A DNA stretch of 64,000 nt from Halobacillus yeomjeoni (GTDB taxonomy: Bacteria; Bacillota; Bacilli; Bacillales; Halobacillaceae), in assembly GCF_020171525.1 (NCBI RefSeq), contig NZ_JAIVAI010000001.1, positions 1,488,001 through 1,552,000 of the forward strand, written 5' to 3'. The translations under genes and the position numbers were made by a program. The stretch's first letter is position 1. Every line of letters starts with the position of its first letter. The notes beneath the pieces are model-generated. The model saw only the letters and a list, made by a program, of their open reading frames with translations. It had not been told where the DNA came from and ran no database searches. Positions 4,370-63,968 of the stretch are shown here, in pieces.

Positions 4370-6400
4370 CTACATGGCGTTGGCTTTCGCTCCCCTTTGC
4401 TGCATCTGGTACATTTTATAATAATGTCCCTGCAATGCTATCAAGCGCTGATGTGTTCCTCGTTCCACTATTGTACCATGATTAAGGACGAAAATTTGGT
4501 CTGCCTGCTGTATTGTGGAGAGTCTATGGGCAATGACAAGGGTCGTTCTGCCTTGTTTTAGCACCTCCAACGCATTTTGAATCATCTGTTCTGTTTCCGT
4601 ATCGATATTAGCGGTAGCCTCATCCAATATCAAGATCGCTGGATCAAAAGCCAGGGCACGGGCAAATGAAATCAATTGTCTTTCACCCATCGAAAGGGAT
4701 TCTCCTCTTTCATTCAGCGGGGTATCATATCCATGCCCGAGCTTTTCTATAAATCGATCAGCACCGACAGCTTTCAACGCGTTTATTGCCATTTCCCGGG
4801 AAATACGAGCATCATTCATCGTTACATTCGACAGGATCGTTCCTTTGTACAAAAAGGGATCTTGAAGAACAATTCCCATATGACTTCTCACTTGCTGCCG
4901 TGACCACTTCCGTGTATCACCCCCATCAATATAAACACTGCCTCTTTGTGGGTCATAAAACCGGAACAACAAATTCATAATGGAACTTTTCCCTGATCCT
5001 GTGTGCCCTACAAAAGCGGCTGTCTCTCCCTTATTCACTTGAAAAGAAATATCCTTTAAAACATCATTCTTTCCGTCGTAAGCAAAGCGGACCTCTTCAA
5101 ATTTAATATTTCCTTCAAATCTTGGAATGGAATCCAAGTCCAATTCTTCCTCTTCCTCATCTAAGAGATCAAAGACTCTCGTTGCTGCGACTCTAGCAAC
5201 TTCCAGTTGTGGCAGTTGATTGACGAGGTCTGTCACAGGCTGGAACAATCGATTCAAGTAGTCGACAAATGCATAAAGAACACCGACCGTCACGATTCCT
5301 TCCGCTCCTAATGATGACGACCCAAAATACCAAATCAACCCGACTAACGTCAGGTTCCTCAGTGTATTTACGAGGTTATAAGAGGTCAATGCGCTTAAGC
5401 GAACCAACTTTCTTTGGTAGGTGAAATGCCTTTTATTCAATTCTTCGAATTCATCAGATGTCTGCTTTTCCTGCCCGAAAGCCTGGATGATGGACATCCC
5501 TTGTATAGCTTCATTGATATTTCCATTCATATCACTCACAGTTGAGCGGACCACTTTGTTATATTTTCCACCGAAGTGTTTATATAATTTCGTCCACCCA
5601 TACAAAATAGGCAGGAGCACCAGGCACATCAAGGCCAGTTTAGCATCCAGCAAAAAGAGTGCTGCGAAAATTCCAGCCATGTAAAAGACACTGGTTACAA
5701 AAGTGGCCAGCACACGCTCATACAATTCCTTAATCGATTCAGTGTCATTGGTTACTCGTGCAACGATCTTCCCTGCTGGCTGATTCACGAAGAAACGATC
5801 AGGCAGACGCTGTATGTGGTTGAATAAATCGTCCCTCATCTTTTTGATGATTCGGTTGGAAGACTTTTGAAGAATGTACGTATGAGTAAATTGAAAAACA
5901 GACGCGATCAGCAATAATCCTATATAAACAGCGAGCAGGGCATATATAGAAGGAATCTCTGGTTTGAAAAACCCGTAAAGTTGTTGGAGGGAAAGCTTTT
6001 CTGCAAATCGTTCATAAGTCCGGTCAGGAGCTTCTATGATGATCTGATTCCCTTCCACCGTCCTACTGCCTTTTAATGGAACATTTCCTTCTACAAAATA
6101 ATAAGACCGGTCTACTTGGATAATCGTCATTACATCATTGAGTTCTTCAAGATCCGGCAGCCGATCTTCCCTCATATACACCTCCCCGTTAAATGTTACG
6201 GACCCTTCCCTGTCCTCCGATACTTGATACCATTGGTCTTCGATCCCGACGATGTGTTCATCAATGACTCGCTTGGCAATAAAAGGACCCGTCAACTCAA
6301 GGGAGACAGCTAATATCAGGCACAATACCCCGATGGATATGTTTTTTCGGTAATTCCATGCATAATCGAATAATCGTCGCTCTGTTGTTTTTACAGTCAT
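4370..6400 (-). CDS. bmrD: Heterodimeric ABC exporter subunit, ATP-binding/permease (BmrD/YheH-like)
   Basis: The 676-residue fusion has six predicted membrane helices followed by an ATPase domain. A hydrophilic insertion (about residues 35-130) sits between the first two helices, matching the extracellular domain of BmrD, and the length fits B. subtilis BmrD. The ATPase has Walker A GHTGSGKSS, a canonical Walker B with catalytic Glu (ILDEATANID) and an altered signature LSMGERQL instead of LSGGQ. This asymmetry is typical of heterodimeric multidrug exporters. The start overlaps the stop of the partner gene by ATGA, so the subunits are translationally coupled. The substrate is inferred to be antibiotics or other amphiphiles. 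Confidence 0.88.
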   Translation of the reverse strand: MTVKTTERRLFDYAWNYRKNISIGVLCLILAVSLELTGPFIAKRVIDEHIVGIEDQWYQVSEDREGSVTFNGEVYMREDRLPDLEELNDVMTIIQVDRSYYFVEGNVPLKGSRTVEGNQIIIEAPDRTYERFAEKLSLQQLYGFFKPEIPSIYALLAVYIGLLLIASVFQFTHTYILQKSSNRIIKKMRDDLFNHIQRLPDRFFVNQPAGKIVARVTNDTESIKELYERVLATFVTSVFYMAGIFAALFLLDAKLALMCLVLLPILYGWTKLYKHFGGKYNKVVRSTVSDMNGNINEAIQGMSIIQAFGQEKQTSDEFEELNKRHFTYQRKLVRLSALTSYNLVNTLRNLTLVGLIWYFGSSSLGAEGIVTVGVLYAFVDYLNRLFQPVTDLVNQLPQLEVARVAATRVFDLLDEEEEELDLDSIPRFEGNIKFEEVRFAYDGKNDVLKDISFQVNKGETAAFVGHTGSGKSSIMNLLFRFYDPQRGSVYIDGGDTRKWSRQQVRSHMGIVLQDPFLYKGTILSNVTMNDARISREMAINALKAVGADRFIEKLGHGYDTPLNERGESLSMGERQLISFARALAFDPAILILDEATANIDTETEQMIQNALEVLKQGRTTLVIAHRLSTIQQADQIFVLNHGTIVERGTHQRLIALQGHYYKMYQMQQRGAKANAM

Positions 6401-8145
6401 GAATGATCACCCCCACTCTCCAACTGCTGTCGTTCGTACTGCTCACAATACCACCCTTTATGTCCAATCAATTGATCATGTGTACCTTCTTCTACGATTC
6501 TTCCCTCATCCAAAACGAGGATGTAATCTGCATGTGTGACAGCTGAAAGACGATGAGCGGCGATCAGTGTCGTCTTCCCCTTTCTTTCTTTTCTCAAATG
6601 ATCGATGATGTTTGATTCTGTCCTGCCATCGACAGCAGACATTGCATCATCAAGAATCAATATTTCTGGATCTTTGATAAAGGCTCTCGCTATAGAAACA
6701 CGCTGCTTCTGACCGCCTGATAATGTCACACCACTCTCTCCGACTTTAGTATCCAGACCATTTGGAAGAGCTTTGATATCTTCTAAAAAATGCGCAAACT
6801 CTAACACTTTATAGATTTCTTCATCCGTAGCAGCTTCCTTACCGAATTGAATATTTTCACGAATCGTTTTAGAAAATAACACTTGATTTTGAGGGACGTA
6901 CCCGATCCAATTCCGTGTTGTTTCAAGGTCCATATCTTCCAAAGGAGTATCATCGATAACCAAGGACCCTTTCAATCCTGGATACTCCCGTAAAAGCTGT
7001 TTAAAGAATGTCGTCTTTCCAGCTCCTGTTTTCCCTACGATTCCTATAGTTTCACCAGGTTTAATTGTGACATCGATTTCTTTCAACCCTTCCGTTTCGG
7101 CATCCGGATAACGGAAAGATACATTTCTGAAGTCAATCTTCCCTGGTCGCTCCAATTTTTTAGGGATCGAAGGTGTAAATACATCAGGCTGATAACTCAA
7201 GGTGTCATTTACGCGATCAAGTGATGCATTCCCCCGTTGCAAGACATTGATCAGTTCACCGACCGCAAACATCGGCCAGATCAACATACCTAAGTAAACA
7301 TTGAAAGATACCATTTCACCTAATGAAATCACATTTTGAAACACCAAAGCGGCTCCGTACCCTAATCCGATCGTATAGGATAATCCCACTAACACTTTGA
7401 TGGTAGGTTCAAATAGAGCATCGACTTTTGCGACCTTGACATTTTTTCCATACACGCGATCTGTCATCTCCTGAAAACGGCGGAAATCATTGTTTTCTTG
7501 AACAAATGCCCGCGAAACACGAATTCCTTTTACCGACTCCAGGACGTCATTGTTCATTTCTCCGAAAGCTGTTTGAGCAGCGGTAAACCTCTCATGAATG
7601 ACTTTTCCATATTTATTCATCGCAAAAGCCATGATCGGCAGTGGGAGAAGCGCTGCAAACGTAAGTTTCCAGCTGATTGTAAAACCCATTACAGCAATGA
7701 TCAGGAACATGAACATCGTCGAATCCACTAACGTAAGTATTCCGAATCCTGCTGTCATTGTTAAAGCTTTCAAATCGTTTGTCGCCCTTGCCATCAGATC
7801 CCCGGTTCTGTTCTTCCCGAAAAAGGTAGGAGTCATCTTCAAGAAATGGTTCATTAACTTCGACCTCATCGTTCGTTCCATAATTAACGCACCACTGAAC
7901 AAAGTATAATCCCACAAATAAGAAATAGAGTAACTGGCTGCGATTAACCCTCCGTAAAGGAGTATGATTTCCATTAACCTCTCTGAAGTCAATGTATTGA
8001 ACTGGATGGCATCGATGGCTGCACCTAATAGTTTGGGTGGAATCAATTCAATTGCGCTCCCAATAATCAAAGCTATAATTGCAAACGTATACCGTTTCCA
8101 ATAAATCTTGAAGAACCATCGTAATTTGTATAACACACTAAACAT
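6397..8145 (-). CDS. bmrC: Heterodimeric ABC exporter subunit, ATP-binding/permease (BmrC/YheI-like)
   Basis: The 582-residue half-transporter has six membrane helices and an ATPase domain with Walker A GKTGAGKTT and signature LSGGQKQR. In Walker B the catalytic Glu is replaced by Asp (ILDDAMSAVD). It is therefore the partner with the consensus signature but a weakened catalytic residue, complementary to the downstream subunit. The order, sizes and pairing match B. subtilis bmrC-bmrD. AAGGGGAG precedes the ATG. The 5' region holds a leader ORF and a terminator, so expression is probably controlled by attenuation. Confidence 0.88.
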   Translation of the reverse strand: MFSVLYKLRWFFKIYWKRYTFAIIALIIGSAIELIPPKLLGAAIDAIQFNTLTSERLMEIILLYGGLIAASYSISYLWDYTLFSGALIMERTMRSKLMNHFLKMTPTFFGKNRTGDLMARATNDLKALTMTAGFGILTLVDSTMFMFLIIAVMGFTISWKLTFAALLPLPIMAFAMNKYGKVIHERFTAAQTAFGEMNNDVLESVKGIRVSRAFVQENNDFRRFQEMTDRVYGKNVKVAKVDALFEPTIKVLVGLSYTIGLGYGAALVFQNVISLGEMVSFNVYLGMLIWPMFAVGELINVLQRGNASLDRVNDTLSYQPDVFTPSIPKKLERPGKIDFRNVSFRYPDAETEGLKEIDVTIKPGETIGIVGKTGAGKTTFFKQLLREYPGLKGSLVIDDTPLEDMDLETTRNWIGYVPQNQVLFSKTIRENIQFGKEAATDEEIYKVLEFAHFLEDIKALPNGLDTKVGESGVTLSGGQKQRVSIARAFIKDPEILILDDAMSAVDGRTESNIIDHLRKERKGKTTLIAAHRLSAVTHADYILVLDEGRIVEEGTHDQLIGHKGWYCEQYERQQLESGGDHS

Positions 8146-8198
8146 GCAAACTCCCCTTTCCGCCTACATCACTCCATTTTCTTCTAATTAAAATTCAA

Positions 8199-8226
8199 CA
8201 AAAAAACATACGTCCAAGACGTATGT
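8199..8226 (-). terminator. Attenuator terminator upstream of the ABC exporter operon
   Basis: A perfect 9-bp stem (ACATACGTC/GACGTATGT) with a 3-nt loop is followed by seven T on the minus strand. It lies between the leader ORF and bmrC within one transcription unit, so it must be read through for the exporter to be made. Confidence 0.85.
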
Positions 8227-8242
8227 TTTACACACAAAAAAG

Positions 8243-8339
8243 GACACGCGCTCATGACGTGACCAAACGAACGTTTTGAAATTATATGACACTTAACCTT
8301 TCATTACGCCAGTCACGAACCATATGAAATTAGCGTGTC
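8243..8339 (-). promoter_or_regulatory. Alternative RNA pairings in the exporter leader
   Basis: The leader-ORF segment GACACGC (8333-8339) can pair with GCGUGUC (8243-8249), which is followed by CCUUUUUU and would form a second terminator-like structure. The overlapping leader segment AUGACAC can instead pair with GUGUCAU (8286-8292). The two pairings exclude each other, and a ribosome on the leader ORF would block both. This supports ribosome-dependent attenuation, but the pairing was found by eye and not computed. Confidence 0.5.
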
Positions 8340-8360
8340 ATTCTGTAGGTGCTTTTTCAT
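8313..8360 (-). CDS. 15-residue leader peptide of the ABC exporter operon (BmrB-type)
   Basis: The ORF encodes MKKHLQNDTLISYGS. It has a strong ribosome site (AGAAGGAGG) and sits 22 nt after the predicted promoter -10 and upstream of an intrinsic terminator and bmrC. In B. subtilis the bmrCD operon is preceded by the leader bmrB, whose translation mediates attenuation and induction by ribosome-targeting antibiotics. This leader is much shorter than BmrB and shows no clear sequence similarity, so the functional equivalence is inference from position. Confidence 0.65.
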   Translation of the reverse strand: MKKHLQNDTLISYGS

Positions 8361-8389
8361 GGCCGCGACCTCCTTCTCAATGATTATTA

Positions 8390-8418
8390 ATTATATAATT
8401 TTCCGAAAATTTTATCAA
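8390..8418 (-). promoter_or_regulatory. Sigma-A promoter of the leader-bmrCD operon
   Basis: TTGATA, a 17-nt spacer and TATAAT lie on the minus strand immediately upstream of the leader ORF ribosome site. Confidence 0.8.
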
Positions 8419-8436
8419 TAGTTTTACTAAAAATTT

Positions 8437-9459
8437 CTAAAAATCACGTCCAGCAATGATAACCAACGCAAGAACGACTATGATGGCAACGATGAATACG
8501 ATCGATAAAGGCCGTGATACATTTGCTCGTTTCACCTCTTCCCATCTCACAGGACGGATCCCGCTGATGGAAAAAATAGTGACTGCCGCAAGCAGAATCG
8601 ACATGACGTTGACGGTAACTAACAGAAATGCACCGAAAGCCATGCTGTAGGAGGCATTTCCAAGCGACATCCCCAAAGCTACAGATGGGGGAAGCAACGC
8701 AACAGCAACCATGACCCCTACGAGGTTTCCGGATAACCGGTTTAAGAACGCCAGAGCACCGGCTGCACCTGAAGCTACCCCTAAAAAAATGTCGATAATC
8801 GTAACCTTTGTCCTATCGATATATTGATCCGTTTCCATACCCATATCAGAAAAAAAACCGAATAAGATAGAAATTATCAAAACGATAGCAAATCCATAAA
8901 AAGAGGTTAAAGCCGACTTTCCCAATAATTTATAGTCACCGAGCACGGAGGAGAATGCAATCGCAATTACAGGACCGATCATAGGAGCAATAACCATGGC
9001 TCCTATGACAACAGCTTCACTGTCTTTCAAGAACCCGACGGTTGCAACCACCGCTGATAAAATAATCAATAATGAATAATTCAAAGTAATATGGCTGTTT
9101 TTTTCCACTGAACTCAACAGTTCATGCCGACTGGCTCTTAGAAGTCGTGCTTTTTCATTTTCATCTTCCTTTTCTTCTTTTTCCTTAGCTTCTTTTGTCT
9201 TTTGATTGATGGTTTCTTTAGAAAGGTAAGTTTGAACTGGGATAAGCATCGTTTCAAATCCTTCGACTACATTAGAAACCTCTTCCAAGTAATTCAGAAT
9301 CTCTTCCACGCTCGATGTTTCTACAAGAATCCTTACAAGTTTCCGGTCTTCGGACTCACTTGAAACCCAATAGGATTGATGATCATATTCCTTTAATTTT
9401 TCATCTATTGACTCAAAATGATGCTCAGGAATATAGACTTCAATCAACTGTAAGTTCAT
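8437..9459 (-). CDS. DUF389 (TIGR00341) family membrane protein
   Basis: The 340-residue protein has a cytoplasmic alpha/beta N-terminal domain (about 1-80), a lysine/glutamate-rich linker (about 80-110) and roughly six membrane helices. It carries the family pattern SEAVVIGAMVIAPMIGP. DUF389 proteins are widespread, and their transport or other function is not established. GGAGGTG precedes the ATG. It is divergent from the ger operon and ends next to the exporter promoter. Confidence 0.85.
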   Translation of the reverse strand: MNLQLIEVYIPEHHFESIDEKLKEYDHQSYWVSSESEDRKLVRILVETSSVEEILNYLEEVSNVVEGFETMLIPVQTYLSKETINQKTKEAKEKEEKEDENEKARLLRASRHELLSSVEKNSHITLNYSLLIILSAVVATVGFLKDSEAVVIGAMVIAPMIGPVIAIAFSSVLGDYKLLGKSALTSFYGFAIVLIISILFGFFSDMGMETDQYIDRTKVTIIDIFLGVASGAAGALAFLNRLSGNLVGVMVAVALLPPSVALGMSLGNASYSMAFGAFLLVTVNVMSILLAAVTIFSISGIRPVRWEEVKRANVSRPLSIVFIVAIIVVLALVIIAGRDF

Positions 9460-9490
9460 TTCTTCACCTCCATCTATCAGACATCAATTT

Positions 9491-9520
9491 TTCATATTGT
9501 CTCCTTTTTTTCACATACTA
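9491..9520 (+). promoter_or_regulatory. Sigma-G-like promoter of the first ger operon
   Basis: TTCATA, a 17-nt spacer and CATACTA lie 32 bases before the gerA start. The -10 fits the sigma-G pattern CATNNTA exactly and the -35 fits TGNATA in five of six positions, as expected for forespore-expressed germinant receptor genes. Confidence 0.55.
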
Positions 9521-9551: not shown

Positions 9552-11033
9552 GTGGAGTTCAAGTTACCGATGACAACGAAAGTCTATATCGATGCTCTTA
9601 ATCAAAAATTCAATCAAAGTCCTGATTTGATCCATAAAGTCTTTGATATCAAAGGACAGTCGATTGTCATTCATTTCATTTCCTATCAGATAAAAAAAGA
9701 ACGGCTGGACCGCGAAATTTTAGAACCGTTGACATCTTCCCGCAAACCTTGGAGTGTAAATGATTTACAAAATAGAATTCCTCTTGCCTCCTCAAAAGCT
9801 GAAACGAACCTGGAAGAAATCGCAGGGCAGATCATCCATGGATCAGTGGCTGTTTATATTGAAGGCGAAAAAGAAGTCATAACGTATCTACTTGCAGACC
9901 AGGAACAGCGCAGTTTAGAAAGAGCTGAAACAGAATCCTTGGTATTCGGACCACAAGTTTCATTTACTGAATCATTGATTACGAATTTGAATGTCGTGCG
10001 CTGGCGTCTGGATACCGATGATCTTGTAATGAAGAAATTGATCGTAGGAGAAAGGATTCCTACGGAAGTCAGAATCGTGTACTTGAAGTCTTTGACGAAT
10101 GAGGAAAATGTCGAAACCATCACTCAACGAATCGAGGATCTAGTCGTTGATGAAATTGAGGATACTTCTGTTCTTAGTCAATTGATTGAAGACTCATCTA
10201 GTACTGTATTCCCTCAATTGATTGCAACGGAACTTCCTGACCGCTTTTGTCACTCTTTAATGAAAGGCCGCGTCGGTGTGATGGTTGATAAAAGTCCGAC
10301 GGTGTTGATCGGTCCTGTTTCGTTATTCAGTTTTTTCGAATCGACAGAAGACCTTTATATGCGTTGGAACATGGGAACTTTCATGCGTTTATTGAGAATT
10401 TTAGCGATGATGCTGTCGATCATTCTCACTCCGATGTATGTTGCTGCTCTGACTTACCACTATGAAGTGATCCCGGGGTCTTTGCTCGTATCCTTAGGAC
10501 AGTCAAGAGCAACCGTTCCCTTTCCTCCTGTGTTAGAGGCATTGCTGCTCGAGACTCTCATTGAGCTTTTAAGAGAAGCTGGGGCCAGGTTACCTACTAA
10601 GGTCGGTCAGACGATGGGTATTGTAGGAGGAATCGTACTTGGTCAGGCCGCTGTAAAAGCAGGGTTCACGAGTAATATTTTAATTATCATCATCGCATTA
10701 AGTGCACTCGCGTCCTTCACAGCACCAAGTTATTTGATGGGGACAGCGATAAGAGTCATTCGTTTCCCTATGATCATTTTAGCAGGTGCATGGGGGTTGA
10801 TTGGAATTGCATTCGCTCTCTGCTTTTTGGTTCTTCATTTGTTGAAGCTGTCATCTCTCGGGCGTCCGTATTTAGCCCCGGTCTATCCTTTGTCAATAAA
10901 AGATTTCAGCGACTCCATTATAAGGCTTCCTTTTAATAAGAACCCGAAGCGACCAACAAGTACAATGCCAAAAGACCCTGACCGCTTCGATGAGAATAAA
11001 GCTAAACAGAAAAAAGATGTGAACCCATCATGA
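9552..11033 (+). CDS. Spore germination protein, GerA family (germinant receptor A subunit), operon 1
   Basis: The 493-residue protein has a large N-terminal cytoplasmic region (about 1-270) that includes TELPDRFCHSLMKGRVGVMVDKSP, read here as the conserved ERPDR...GRVA block in variant form. A membrane region of four to five helices and a short charged tail follow. GerA-type receptors sit in the spore inner membrane and respond to nutrients together with B and C subunits. GAGGAGG precedes a GTG start. The stop overlaps the gerB start by 4 nt. The specific germinant cannot be predicted. Confidence 0.9.
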   Translation: MEFKLPMTTKVYIDALNQKFNQSPDLIHKVFDIKGQSIVIHFISYQIKKERLDREILEPLTSSRKPWSVNDLQNRIPLASSKAETNLEEIAGQIIHGSVAVYIEGEKEVITYLLADQEQRSLERAETESLVFGPQVSFTESLITNLNVVRWRLDTDDLVMKKLIVGERIPTEVRIVYLKSLTNEENVETITQRIEDLVVDEIEDTSVLSQLIEDSSSTVFPQLIATELPDRFCHSLMKGRVGVMVDKSPTVLIGPVSLFSFFESTEDLYMRWNMGTFMRLLRILAMMLSIILTPMYVAALTYHYEVIPGSLLVSLGQSRATVPFPPVLEALLLETLIELLREAGARLPTKVGQTMGIVGGIVLGQAAVKAGFTSNILIIIIALSALASFTAPSYLMGTAIRVIRFPMIILAGAWGLIGIAFALCFLVLHLLKLSSLGRPYLAPVYPLSIKDFSDSIIRLPFNKNPKRPTSTMPKDPDRFDENKAKQKKDVNPS

Positions 11034-12136
11034 AAATTAATTATTACGTAAAACAAGATGTAGCCGTCCATGCGTTTTATTTATTCTTTTTGGTCCATAC
11101 TGTTCAAATCGGTGCAGGATTAATGGGCGTTCCACGCATTATTTTCTCTGAATCAGGGACTGATGCGTGGATGTCTCTTATTTTAGCAGGAATTTATATT
11201 CACTTTACTGCTTGGATTATGGTTTTAGTTTTAAGAGAATATGAAAGTGCAGATGTGCTGGGGATCCAATGTGATTTATTCGGGATGTTCATAGGGAAAG
11301 TGATTGGCTGCCTGTACGTCGTCTATTTGTTTTTCCTTCTTTTATCCGTCATAAAAAATTATGTAGAAGTTGTCCAAGTATTTATCTTCCCTGAGATACC
11401 GATATGGTTGATGAGTTTTTTCCTTCTTTTTTTAATGATTTACTGCTTATTAGGAGGAATAAGAACGGTGGTTGGAGCCTGTTTCATTTTCTTCCTTCTA
11501 ACGATTTGGCTTGTCTTCACGCTATATAAACCGATAAGCCTCATGAATTGGGACCACTTCTTACCAATAGGGCAGTCCACCCCATTTGAGGTATTGAAAG
11601 GAGCTTACAAAACCACCTATTCCCTACTTGGATTTGAGGTCATTCTTTTCGTCTACCCTTATATAAAAAACAAGAAGGCTGTTCACCTGCCCATTCAAAG
11701 TGCCATTTTCCTGACTATTTTCTTAACGATGCTGGTCATGGTCGTTTCAATTGGATATTTCAGTCCTGACCAATTGAAGGAAACGGTGTGGGCGACCTTA
11801 GCGTTATTTAAGATTGTCAGCTTCTCCATTATTGAGCGATTTGATTTCATCGCTGTGGCCTTATGGATGATGGTCATCATTCCTAACCTGGTCATTATCG
11901 GATGGATGATTCTCCATTCTTTAAATAGAATGTTTTATGTCTCAAAGAAGAAAAGTTTATTCATGATCAGCGGGCTGCTGTTCCTTGCTTCGCTAATCAT
12001 CGAATACCGGTCATACATAAATCTATTGACTGATTGGACAGCAAAAATAGGTTTCTGGCTGGTGTTTGTGTATCCTCTATTCATTTATTTCATTCTTCAA
12101 ATCAAAAAACTTTGGAGGAAGGGGAAAAGGGCATGA
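11030..12136 (+). CDS. Spore germination protein, GerB family (APC-superfamily B subunit), operon 1
   Basis: The 368-residue integral membrane protein has about ten predicted helices in the amino-acid-permease fold typical of GerB/GerAB proteins, which bind the germinant. It starts inside the gerA stop (ATGA overlap) and its own stop overlaps the gerC start by ATGA, so the three subunits are coupled. Confidence 0.88.
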   Translation: MKINYYVKQDVAVHAFYLFFLVHTVQIGAGLMGVPRIIFSESGTDAWMSLILAGIYIHFTAWIMVLVLREYESADVLGIQCDLFGMFIGKVIGCLYVVYLFFLLLSVIKNYVEVVQVFIFPEIPIWLMSFFLLFLMIYCLLGGIRTVVGACFIFFLLTIWLVFTLYKPISLMNWDHFLPIGQSTPFEVLKGAYKTTYSLLGFEVILFVYPYIKNKKAVHLPIQSAIFLTIFLTMLVMVVSIGYFSPDQLKETVWATLALFKIVSFSIIERFDFIAVALWMMVIIPNLVIIGWMILHSLNRMFYVSKKKSLFMISGLLFLASLIIEYRSYINLLTDWTAKIGFWLVFVYPLFIYFILQIKKLWRKGKRA

Positions 12137-13266
12137 AATGGATTTCTATGACAATCATTCTGCTTCTCCTTTGTGCAGGATGCATTCCTAAATCCCCCAT
12201 AGAAAAATTAGGGATCATTACTGCTATGGGGTTTGATGAACTTGAAGGTGACAAAATGAAGGGGACTCTTGTCATGTTTCAATTTGATCCTACTACTTCC
12301 CAAACCTCCCAAACCGTCACAAGTGAGGCTCATACATCAAAAGGAATACGTAATGAAGCAAACCAAAAGACAAGCCACAAGCTAGTTTCAGGACAAATCA
12401 GATTGAAAGTGTATCAAGATCAATTAGCTTCAAAAGGATTACTGAGGTATTTAGACACGGTCACCCGTGATGCAAAAATGTTACCTTTAGCGTATCTTTC
12501 TGTAAGCGATGTCCCCACAAGCCAATTACTGCGGGCGGAAATTTCAGAAGATGCTCCAAATATCGGAAAATACATCGAACGACTGATTGAAAAAAGTATA
12601 ACGAATGAAATGTCTCCGGATGCCACAGTCGTTACCTTTTTAAGAGACTATCATGATATAGGAGTCGACCCCACTCTTCCCTTATTATCATTAGAGGAAC
12701 AAAGAGTTTTCATAAAAGGGCTGGGTTTATTTCAAGATGATCGATACGTAGGGACGTTGACCGATGAAGACATTTTTTATTTACTCCTATTACAAAAAAA
12801 CTTGAAGATCGGCCAATTACAAATAGAACTACCAGAAAGTTCTATGGAAAAGTATTATAAAAAAGAAGCCGCGGACAATGAAACAGAAGGTTCCCTCCAT
12901 GTTTCTATCCATAAAGTGGATAGCAAAGTGAAAATTAAACCGAAAAAGAATGACCCCAGTTCTTTTAAGGTCAATTTAACGATGAGAACTCGATTGTTGG
13001 AAGTATCGAAGAGCGTTGACTTAAGTGAAAAGAAAACGATTGATGCGTTGGAAAAACAAATTGAAAAACAAATCGAAAAAAGAGTGTCAGCCTTGATTCA
13101 AGAATTCAAAGAGAAGCAAGTCGACCCCGTTGGTTTTGGTTTGAAATACAACACGATAACGAGAAAGGATCGACTCACCAACGAAAGCTGGCGGGACCAG
13201 ATTCCTAATATGAAAGTTGATATTAATGTAGACGTGAAACTCCTGCGTCATGGGATTACTGAATAA
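12133..13266 (+). CDS. Spore germination lipoprotein, GerC family, operon 1
   Basis: The start is placed at the ATG at 12133, which overlaps the gerB stop. This gives a lipoprotein signal peptide (MKWISMTIILLLLCAGC) with lipobox LCAGC, so the protein is lipid-anchored at Cys17. The rest has the GerAC fold pattern, with IITAMGFDE near the N-terminus and a C-terminal domain (KVKIKPKK onward). An upstream in-frame ATG at 12034 would bury the signal sequence and is rejected. It completes the A-B-C receptor. Confidence 0.9.
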   Translation: MKWISMTIILLLLCAGCIPKSPIEKLGIITAMGFDELEGDKMKGTLVMFQFDPTTSQTSQTVTSEAHTSKGIRNEANQKTSHKLVSGQIRLKVYQDQLASKGLLRYLDTVTRDAKMLPLAYLSVSDVPTSQLLRAEISEDAPNIGKYIERLIEKSITNEMSPDATVVTFLRDYHDIGVDPTLPLLSLEEQRVFIKGLGLFQDDRYVGTLTDEDIFYLLLLQKNLKIGQLQIELPESSMEKYYKKEAADNETEGSLHVSIHKVDSKVKIKPKKNDPSSFKVNLTMRTRLLEVSKSVDLSEKKTIDALEKQIEKQIEKRVSALIQEFKEKQVDPVGFGLKYNTITRKDRLTNESWRDQIPNMKVDINVDVKLLRHGITE

Positions 13267-62956: not shown

Positions 62957-63039
62957 TACCGGTGGCCGGGGTCGAACCGGCACTCCGTGAGGAACACGAT
63001 TTTGAGTCGTGCGCGTCTGCCAATTCCGCCACACCGGCA
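62957..63039 (-). tRNA. tRNA-Leu (anticodon CAA)
   Basis: An 83-nt class II tRNA with a long variable arm starts TGCCGGTG. The anticodon loop CTCAAAA gives CAA. CCA is not encoded. It is the last tRNA of the cluster. Confidence 0.95.
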
Positions 63040-63048
63040 TATGATTTC

Positions 63049-63122
63049 TGGAGGCGGCAACCGGAATCGAACCGGTGATAAAGGAGTTGCAGTCCTCTGC
63101 CTTACCGCTTGGCTATGCCGCC
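63049..63122 (-). tRNA. tRNA-Cys (anticodon GCA)
   Basis: The cloverleaf starts GGCGGCATAG, with anticodon loop CTGCAAC and GCA anticodon. CCA is encoded. Confidence 0.95.
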
Positions 63123-63182
63123 ATAGGATCAATTACGATTGTATCATATTCAAGTGTTGTTGAATATGTGCCTTATTTTAAA

Positions 63183-63257
63183 TGGAGCGGGAGACGGGAT
63201 TCGAACCCGCGACCCCCACCTTGGCAAGGTGGTGTTCTACCACTGAACTACTCCCGC
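63183..63257 (-). tRNA. tRNA-Gly (anticodon GCC)
   Basis: The cloverleaf starts GCGGGAGTAG, with anticodon loop TTGCCAA and GCC anticodon. CCA is encoded. Confidence 0.95.
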
Positions 63258-63264
63258 ATTAAAG

Positions 63265-63339
63265 TGGCTGGGCCAGCTGGATTCGAACCAGCGCATGACG
63301 GTACCAAAAACCGTTGCCTTACCGCTTGGCTATGGCCCA
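63265..63339 (-). tRNA. tRNA-Gln (anticodon TTG)
   Basis: The cloverleaf starts TGGGCCATAG, with anticodon stem ACGGT/ACCGT around loop TTTTGGT and TTG anticodon. CCA is encoded. Confidence 0.93.
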
Positions 63340-63358
63340 AAAGATCGTTTGTTATAAA

Positions 63359-63435
63359 TGGGGCGGCTGATGGGAATCGAACCCACGAATGCCGGAACCA
63401 CAATCCGGTGCGTTAACCACTTCGCCACAACCGCC
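63359..63435 (-). tRNA. tRNA-His (anticodon GTG)
   Basis: The cloverleaf with an extra 5' G (position -1) starts GGCGGTTG, with GTG anticodon in CGGATTGTGGTTCCG. CCA is encoded. Confidence 0.95.
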
Positions 63436-63447
63436 ACAATCAAAAAG

Positions 63448-63518
63448 CAGGGGTAGTAGGAATCGAACCCACATTGACGGTTTTGGAGACCGTAGTTTTA
63501 CCATTAAACTATACCCCT
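63448..63518 (-). tRNA. tRNA-Trp (anticodon CCA)
   Basis: The cloverleaf starts AGGGGTATAG, with anticodon loop CTCCAAA and CCA anticodon. A 3' CCA tail is not encoded. Confidence 0.94.
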
Positions 63519-63538
63519 ATTTGAATTATAAAATTAAA

Positions 63539-63624
63539 TGGTGGAGGGAGTAGGACTCGAACCTACGAACCCGATGGGAGCGGATTTACAGTCCGCCGCG
63601 TTTGGCCAACTTCGCTATCCCTCC
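63539..63624 (-). tRNA. tRNA-Tyr (anticodon GTA)
   Basis: An 86-nt class II tRNA starts GGAGGGATAG, with GTA anticodon in CGGACTGTAAATCCG. CCA is encoded. Confidence 0.95.
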
Positions 63625-63637
63625 ACGCTGTAAAGAG

Positions 63638-63713
63638 TGGTGCCGGCCAGAGGACTTGAACCCCCAACCTACTGATTACAAATCAGTTGCTCTGCCAGTT
63701 GAGCTAGGCCGGC
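63638..63713 (-). tRNA. tRNA-Thr (anticodon TGT)
   Basis: The cloverleaf starts GCCGGCCTAG, with TGT anticodon in TGATTTGTAATCA. CCA is encoded. Confidence 0.95.
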
Positions 63714-63718
63714 TAAAA

Positions 63719-63794
63719 TGGTGGCTCGGGACGGAGTCGAACCGCCGACACACGGAGCTTCAATCCGTTGCTCTACCAACTGAGCTACCGAGCC
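63719..63794 (-). tRNA. tRNA-Phe (anticodon GAA)
   Basis: The cloverleaf starts GGCTCGGTAG, with GAA anticodon in CGGATTGAAGCTCCG. CCA is encoded. Confidence 0.95.
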
Positions 63795-63810
63795 AAAATA
63801 TGTATTTAAG

Positions 63811-63887
63811 TGGCGGTCCGGACGGGACTCGAACCCGCGACCTCCTGCGTGACAGGCAGGCATTCTAACCAACTGAACTACCGGACC
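63811..63887 (-). tRNA. tRNA-Asp (anticodon GTC)
   Basis: The cloverleaf starts GGTCCGGTAG, with GTC anticodon in CTGCCTGTCACGCAG. CCA is encoded. Confidence 0.95.
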
Positions 63888-63890
63888 AAT

Positions 63891-63968
<78 letters not shown>

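Follow-up and report, generated by a model that had tools for sequence, protein, structure and literature searches.

In the window, by which we mean the whole 64,000-nucleotide stretch of Halobacillus yeomjeoni DNA analysed here, the genes for a BmrCD-type exporter are preceded by a leader that is most probably a transcription attenuator controlled by the position of the ribosome, orthologous to the bmrB leader of Bacillus subtilis. Three alternative RNA helices that are conserved and covary among relatives support this reading, as does a predicted change of fold when the ribosome moves between codons 10 and 11 of a short leader open reading frame (ORF1). Sequence comparison identifies the leader as the Halobacillus copy of one found ahead of bmrC in numerous other families belonging to its order. 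The original prediction for this locus, a translation-coupled attenuator before a BmrCD exporter, is still the best reading, and its logic holds with a different set of segments; its view that the leader is apparently unrelated to that of B. subtilis has given way to an RNA-level relation to leaders before bmrC elsewhere, the B. subtilis group among them. What had been a model of drug-inducible pump control for one species would thereby become a widespread RNA element with a four-segment logic, in which translation of the leader is tied to the terminator via the leader's own ribosome site.

The leader locus and its relatives

All parts of the leader lie on the minus strand, directly before two ABC half-transporter genes, the orthologues of bmrC (582 aa, 6397..8145, minus strand) and bmrD (676 aa, 4370..6400, minus strand). 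Their best matches among solved structures are B. subtilis YheI and YheH, the BmrC and BmrD of that species, which agrees with the earlier naming of bmrC as the gene downstream of the leader. The sigma-A type promoter TTGATA-17-TATAAT (8390..8418) matches the consensus at 11 of 12 positions. After it come a Shine-Dalgarno (SD) sequence, AAGGAGGT (8375-8368), and ORF1, which runs for 15 codons from ATG to TGA (8313..8360) and has the product MKKHLQNDTLISYGS; promoter, ORF and ribosome site are all present as originally described. Four segments can be distinguished in this RNA. Segment 1 (8355..8375) comprises the SD, GGTCGCGG, the start codon and codon 2 of ORF1, and segment 2 (TTCGTGACT, 8311..8319) has either segment 1 or segment 3 as its partner. 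The anti-start motif AATTTCATA lies at 8323..8331, and its TTTCA is the pairing partner of TGAAA in the start region. Segment 3 (GGTCACG, 8258..8264) is the 5′ arm and segment 4 (CGTGTCC with a run of six U, 8236..8248) the 3′ side of T1, the attenuator hairpin formed by 3:4 with its U-run (8264-8236), which is weak in the window at −8.4 kcal/mol. T2 is a perfect intrinsic terminator with a U-run (8200..8229, stem 8229-8203). It had been described as a 9-bp terminator followed by seven T; the perfect stem stands, whereas stem and T run are not separate, overlapping by one T.

By scanning alone, the promoter and terminator of the window fall within chance expectation, as a simple scan of 7000-9500 returned 5 promoter-like sites against 6.2 expected and 4 terminator-like sites against 2.2 expected. 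It is through conservation, in our comparison, that they go beyond chance. An Rfam scan of the window gave 12 matches, every one a tRNA. Eleven tRNA genes are clustered at 62957-63968 on the minus strand, and the plus strand at 9552-13266 carries three ORFs resembling what we take to be a spore-germination receptor operon.

Relatives were gathered at the levels of family and order. In the family search, bmrC was found at an E-value of 1e-200 or better in 35 of 44 genomes, and the leader was located in all 35. Alignment A1 holds 34 of these leaders and omits L062, which has a long insert between T1 and T2. At the order level, 166 genomes had a match and upstream DNA was taken for part of them, giving with the family a total set of 187 leaders, in which a few species occur twice (e.g. 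L009 and L091). Left out were L034 (upstream DNA absent), L041, L044 and L045 (distant ABC transporters), six duplicate loci, L114, L158 and L167 (unrecognised gene start) and L140 (region too short). ORF1 was found automatically in 145 of the 187 leaders, and clustering yielded 107 representatives, 22 of them from the family, which share less than 30% of their 8-mers.

All 31 family leaders with enough upstream DNA have a promoter of at least 9 of 12 matches no more than 75 nt from the SD, a raw count with no shuffled control; in the other four of the 35 the upstream DNA is too short. T2 with its U-run is present in all 34 aligned family leaders, while a U-run follows T1 in 24 and a good one is missing in 10. 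ORF1 is 19-25 codons long in 32 of the 33 aligned relatives and 15 codons long in L054. Retention of a leader ORF and a terminator among relatives was the original prediction's own test, and both are kept in the 34 aligned family leaders. In the portions of open-licence full text consulted, we saw nothing on a bmrCD leader beyond B. subtilis, nor on its reading frame.

Alternative helices and the position of the ribosome

We propose that segment 2 of the nascent leader pairs with segment 1, which would hide the ribosome site by engaging the SD, start codon and second codon. With 1:2 formed, segment 3 would be free to pair with segment 4, and termination at T1 would be favoured. A ribosome running through ORF1 would end over segment 2, and T1 could again form from segment 3. 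A ribosome that is slowed or carries a drug and stalls in the first ~10 codons would instead cover segment 1; segment 2 could then capture segment 3, T1 would be blocked, and transcription could run on into bmrCD. We infer that in the window 1:2 is the first helix to form and is then held kinetically, and that drugs stall the ribosome early and induce bmrCD, with readthrough passing T2 as well. The position of the ribosome would be read and the peptide probably not, and the model predicts that any stall in the first ~10 codons induces, whatever the peptide.

Comparison of the leaders supports three mutually exclusive helices, 1:2, 2:3 and 3:4. In the 34 leaders of A1, the 1:2 core helix is paired in 98.7% of cells (82.4% for one outlying pair), 2:3 in 98.7%, 3:4 in 88.2% and the main helix of T2 in 95.2%; slid-partner controls gave 18-57%. 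Both structures surpass all 500 shuffles in covariation score and in the number of cells changed on both sides, scores of a kind that related rows inflate. The count of pairs with both sides changed is not clearly above chance in A1 (28/500 and 245/500 shuffles as high), and neither are the further pair types (257/500 and 500/500). The double changes in 2:3 rest on a single column of A1, which is A-U in 16 rows and G-C in 14.

The order-wide comparison provides strong evidence for the alternative helices. Across the 107 representatives, the 1:2 duplex averages −16.3 kcal/mol when each leader keeps its own partner and −11.9 kcal/mol after permutation of the partners (z −17.7). For 2:3, z is −12.1 among the 101 representatives with a strong 1:2, and for 3:4 it is also −12.1 among the 94 in which both 1:2 and 2:3 are strong. 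For each helix, 0 of 2000 permutations did as well as the leaders' own partners. A partner-swap test on 113 leaders outside the family agrees, with a mean z of −1.74 and 51% of leaders beating 90% of their swaps. One instance is L073, where GTTCCTCC provides the match to GGAGGAAC. The B. subtilis-like leader L173 has a weak 2:3 duplex, at −6.1 kcal/mol. A different switch had been put forward originally, in which GACACGC pairs with GCGTGTC or GTGTC. This pairing does exist in the window, where it reaches −12.8 kcal/mol for the site before the U-run, but it is not conserved: the mean of 33 relatives is −2.5 kcal/mol and just one of them is at or below −6, and we rejected it as the switch. By conservation, the switch is that between SD and start codon, late ORF, and 5′ arm of T1.

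The effect of the ribosome was modelled by a scan in which all RNA 5′ of its leading edge was masked and the RNA ended at T1. With the P site at codons 1-10, the family means are 0.35-0.48 for 2:3 and 0.46-0.57 for T1. From codon 11 they are at most 0.11 for 2:3 and 0.78-0.88 for T1, and from codon 12 at most 0.03 and 0.83-0.88. The window gives a sharper change, with 2:3 at 0.65-0.71 over codons 1-10 and 0 afterwards, and T1 at 0-0.10 and then 0.57-0.85. Since 2:3 exceeds 0.5 in just 13-17 of the 34 family rows at codons 1-10, many members keep T1 there at equilibrium. When no ribosome is present, the family medians are 1.00 for 1:2 and 0.85 for T1. The window is an exception to the family in that its equilibrium values are 0.65 for 2:3 and 0.00 for both 1:2 and T1, and kinetic trapping must therefore be assumed. 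Folding of the growing window transcript, with an assumed start at 8383, predicts 1:2 at lengths between 78 nt (−18.4 kcal/mol) and 128 nt and its loss at 136 nt. The need for kinetic trapping in the window is the main weakness of the model.

Folded at growing lengths, the window leader extends 1:2 through the start codon by means of the TGAAA-TTTCA pairing with AATTTCATA. This pairing between start codon and motif is found in 88.2% of A1 cells, the last of its five pairs in 17 of 34 rows. We had considered the motif as a pause or protein site, an idea dropped once its complementarity to the start region appeared. A TTCAT-type motif occurs near segment 2 in 34 of the 107 representatives, against 3.5 in shuffled stretches, and a wider form of it in 56. 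Relative to the ATG, the motif is in frames 0, 1 and 2 in 27, 3 and 4 of the 34 family leaders, and in 20, 13 and 23 of the 56 order-wide representatives. The window is an odd-frame member whose ORF stops early within segment 2, as does that of L054. Pairing of TTTCA with the start region would account for a motif that is retained although its frame varies. As it occurs in all three frames, the RNA rather than the peptide seems to be selected, and relatives make different peptides; a conserved leader peptide sequence was sought among the relatives and not found. The claim that a different peptide does the same job in this leader fares poorly for the same reason, as the peptide is probably not under selection, and the frame comparison makes it unlikely that the leader peptide is the sensor.

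These results bear on the alternative that the nascent peptide, MKKHLQ.., itself stalls the ribosome when an antibiotic occupies the tunnel. In its favour, 27 of 34 family leaders start MKK or MEK, which is the main shared part of the peptide, and the motif is in frame 0 in 27 of 34, where it is mostly read NFI. The use of three frames described above speaks against an arrest peptide, as do the variable columns of ORF1 in the B. subtilis group, which are spread over the codon positions as 5/7/5 with no bias. We consider this explanation unlikely. Less probable again is that T1 and T2 form a plain double terminator that insulates or dampens bmrCD, with an incidental ORF and no regulation. Such an arrangement would fit the two distinct terminator-like hairpins seen in 55 of the 107 representatives and the behaviour of T2 in the window, which has a probability of 0.98-1.00 in every state of two sets of folds (0.83-0.94 in the family, in one of these sets). 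Insulation, however, needs no mutually exclusive 1:2 and 2:3 helices, yet these covary over about 100 leaders, and the leader is regulated in B. subtilis according to the available text of PMC4191407. That the leader acts mainly on whether ribosomes can reach its own initiation site or that of bmrC, and not on termination, is very improbable: 1:2 does sequester the leader's own SD and start codon, but terminator hairpins with U-runs stand between the leader ORF and bmrC.

Reading frames in the B. subtilis leader

For B. subtilis, the consulted parts of Reilman et al. 2014 (PMC4191407) report that control by lincomycin needs both the leader's terminator and translation of the leader. They give bmrB as 162 bp with a GTG start, ending 119 bp before bmrC, and place the alternative structures within nt 60-162 of this 53-codon ORF, with the terminator inside it (PMC4191407). 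Genome G451 is 100% identical to the printed B. subtilis YheI stretch over 306 residues, and its leader (L215) has a 53-codon GTG ORF ending 119 nt before bmrC, as published for bmrB. Sixteen nucleotides upstream of the GTG, in another frame, there is an ATG behind GGAAGGAGGGTTTGCT that opens an ORF of 23 codons. Annotated bmrB and the ATG ORF upstream of it overlap (locus 281-297 nt before bmrC in L215), and the SD and start of the 23-codon ORF pair with its own later part. We also looked for a counterpart of the annotated 53-codon bmrB in the leader ORF of the window and found none, since translation of the window ORF would stop short of T1 and T2 alike.

In the B. subtilis group, here 11 genomes with a YheI at least 92% identical and gathered by a shared ribosome-site pattern, the ATG ORF has the stronger ribosome site and is better conserved than annotated bmrB. 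With 23-32 codons, it is intact in 11 of 11 genomes. In 6 of the 11, counting the near-identical L210 and L223, truncation leaves the annotated frame with 15-42 codons, and the GTG is missing in 4, all of them among the truncated 6. A missing GTG would not by itself rule out the annotated frame, which has other in-frame starts farther upstream, and the truncations weigh more. From this comparison, the 53-codon GTG frame is likely a mis-annotation and not the defining feature of the system.

The published genetics can be set beside this. The start-codon mutant described in the text of PMC4191407 also lost upstream alternative starts and ribosome sites, and for this reason it cannot separate the two ORFs. 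In the same text, fluorescence of a chromosomal in-frame BmrB-GFP fusion was undetectable whereas a plasmid-borne fusion fluoresced (PMC4191407), so the annotated bmrB frame can be translated. With some reserve, we lean towards the wider reading that the sequences describe an order-wide sensor of ribosome position that is blind to the peptide, and that the real B. subtilis ORF is the 23-codon ATG ORF and not annotated bmrB. If this is true, the published B. subtilis model and mutants need re-reading, and the comparison indicates which ORF to mutate in that species.

Downstream elements and comparison with known systems

In the ribosome scan, the family mean for T2 is 0.66-0.85 at codons 1-10 and 0.81-0.92 later. 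With the P site at codons 8 and 9, T2 of the window drops to 0.11 and 0.06, against a family mean of 0.66 there. A composite hairpin (window 8248-8206, minus strand) is predicted to displace T2 at these codons, pairing the spacer TGTGTGT with the 5′ arm of T2, and segment 4 and the U-run with the loop and 3′ arm of T2. These composite pairings gave no significant covariation (n = 47, z −1.65 and −1.18), nor did they among 40 leaders outside the family (z −1.15 and −0.83). Pairing of segment 4 with the 5′ arm of T2 was rejected as an antiterminator, covariation being absent in the cleaned set (n = 47, z +1.27); an earlier set, in which some T1/T2 borders were cut wrongly, gave z 0.05 (n = 40). 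As a control, three B. subtilis-group leaders were folded at equilibrium, and their terminator held 0.99-1.00 at every ribosome position. Since this terminator is regulated in B. subtilis, equilibrium folding cannot be used to decide on T2. Compared by eye in position and sequence, the B. subtilis terminator seems to us the counterpart of T2 and not of T1.

Between T2 and bmrC, most leaders (127 of 187) carry a second small ORF with a ribosome site; the family accounts for 32 of these, out of 35 leaders, and the rest of the set for 95 out of 152. It was picked by its last two residues, and the family carriers lie within L046-L071 and L089-L095. The ORF most often has 18 codons and mostly ends [ED][GS]G-stop, in the family mostly WKESG-stop. 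In the family, W, K, E/D, S/G and G before the stop are fixed or nearly so and third codon positions vary, which argues for selection on this ORF at the peptide level. By eye, a small hairpin and CACATAAAT often come just before it. Translation of two B. subtilis-group leaders gave an ORF of 26 codons ending EGG, in keeping with bmrX, which likewise has 26 codons and is cleaved by Rae1; a bmrX/Rae1 layer was reportedly described by Deves et al. in 2023 (RNA 29:1108). This second small ORF, probably bmrX, is widespread and selected for its peptide, and it can be lost. L061 has a variant ending GRG. The ORF is missing from L072, by eye from Oceanobacillus and Virgibacillus loci, and from the window, where the interval that holds it in the family is 8146..8199 on the minus strand. 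A Rae1-family gene (PF05991) was found in all 41 genomes searched, including that of the window, so loss of Rae1 is not why the window has no second ORF.

In terms of known systems, the window leader resembles that of B. subtilis bmrB in its orthologous pump genes, its shortness, the terminator before bmrC and the predicted alternative helices. Leaders of the B. subtilis group also share with it the hairpin between SD and late ORF and the TTTCATAT motif. The window differs from bmrB as published in that its ORF stops short of both terminators, the SD and start codon of that ORF take part in helix 1:2, there is an additional terminator-like hairpin in T1, and no second small ORF is present. The bmrX/Rae1 layer, which in the B. 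subtilis group involves a small ORF between leader and bmrC, is represented in the window by the Rae1-family gene, the ORF having been lost. Like the E. coli trp attenuator, the leader has four segments with a 1:2, 2:3 and 3:4 logic in which ribosome position would decide. Unlike trp, it has the ribosome site and start codon of the leader as segment 1, a run of control codons is not seen, and the expected signal is slowed translation. A drug-responsive leader ORF before a resistance gene is also a feature of the ErmB and MsrD leader peptides, in the source text consulted. There, ErmB stalling occurs at one particular leader codon, whereas in the bmrCD leader the conserved motif does not keep to one frame. 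The ermC leader is described in the consulted part of PMC2965389 as sensing a general slowing of translation, closer to our reading of the window leader than ErmB stalling is; yheI, yheH and yheJ do not appear in that part of the text (PMC2965389). In short, the leader is a genuine candidate for an attenuator of a known kind, that of its B. subtilis orthologue, with functional steps that are predictions, and what the sequence comparison adds is a refinement of this known system.
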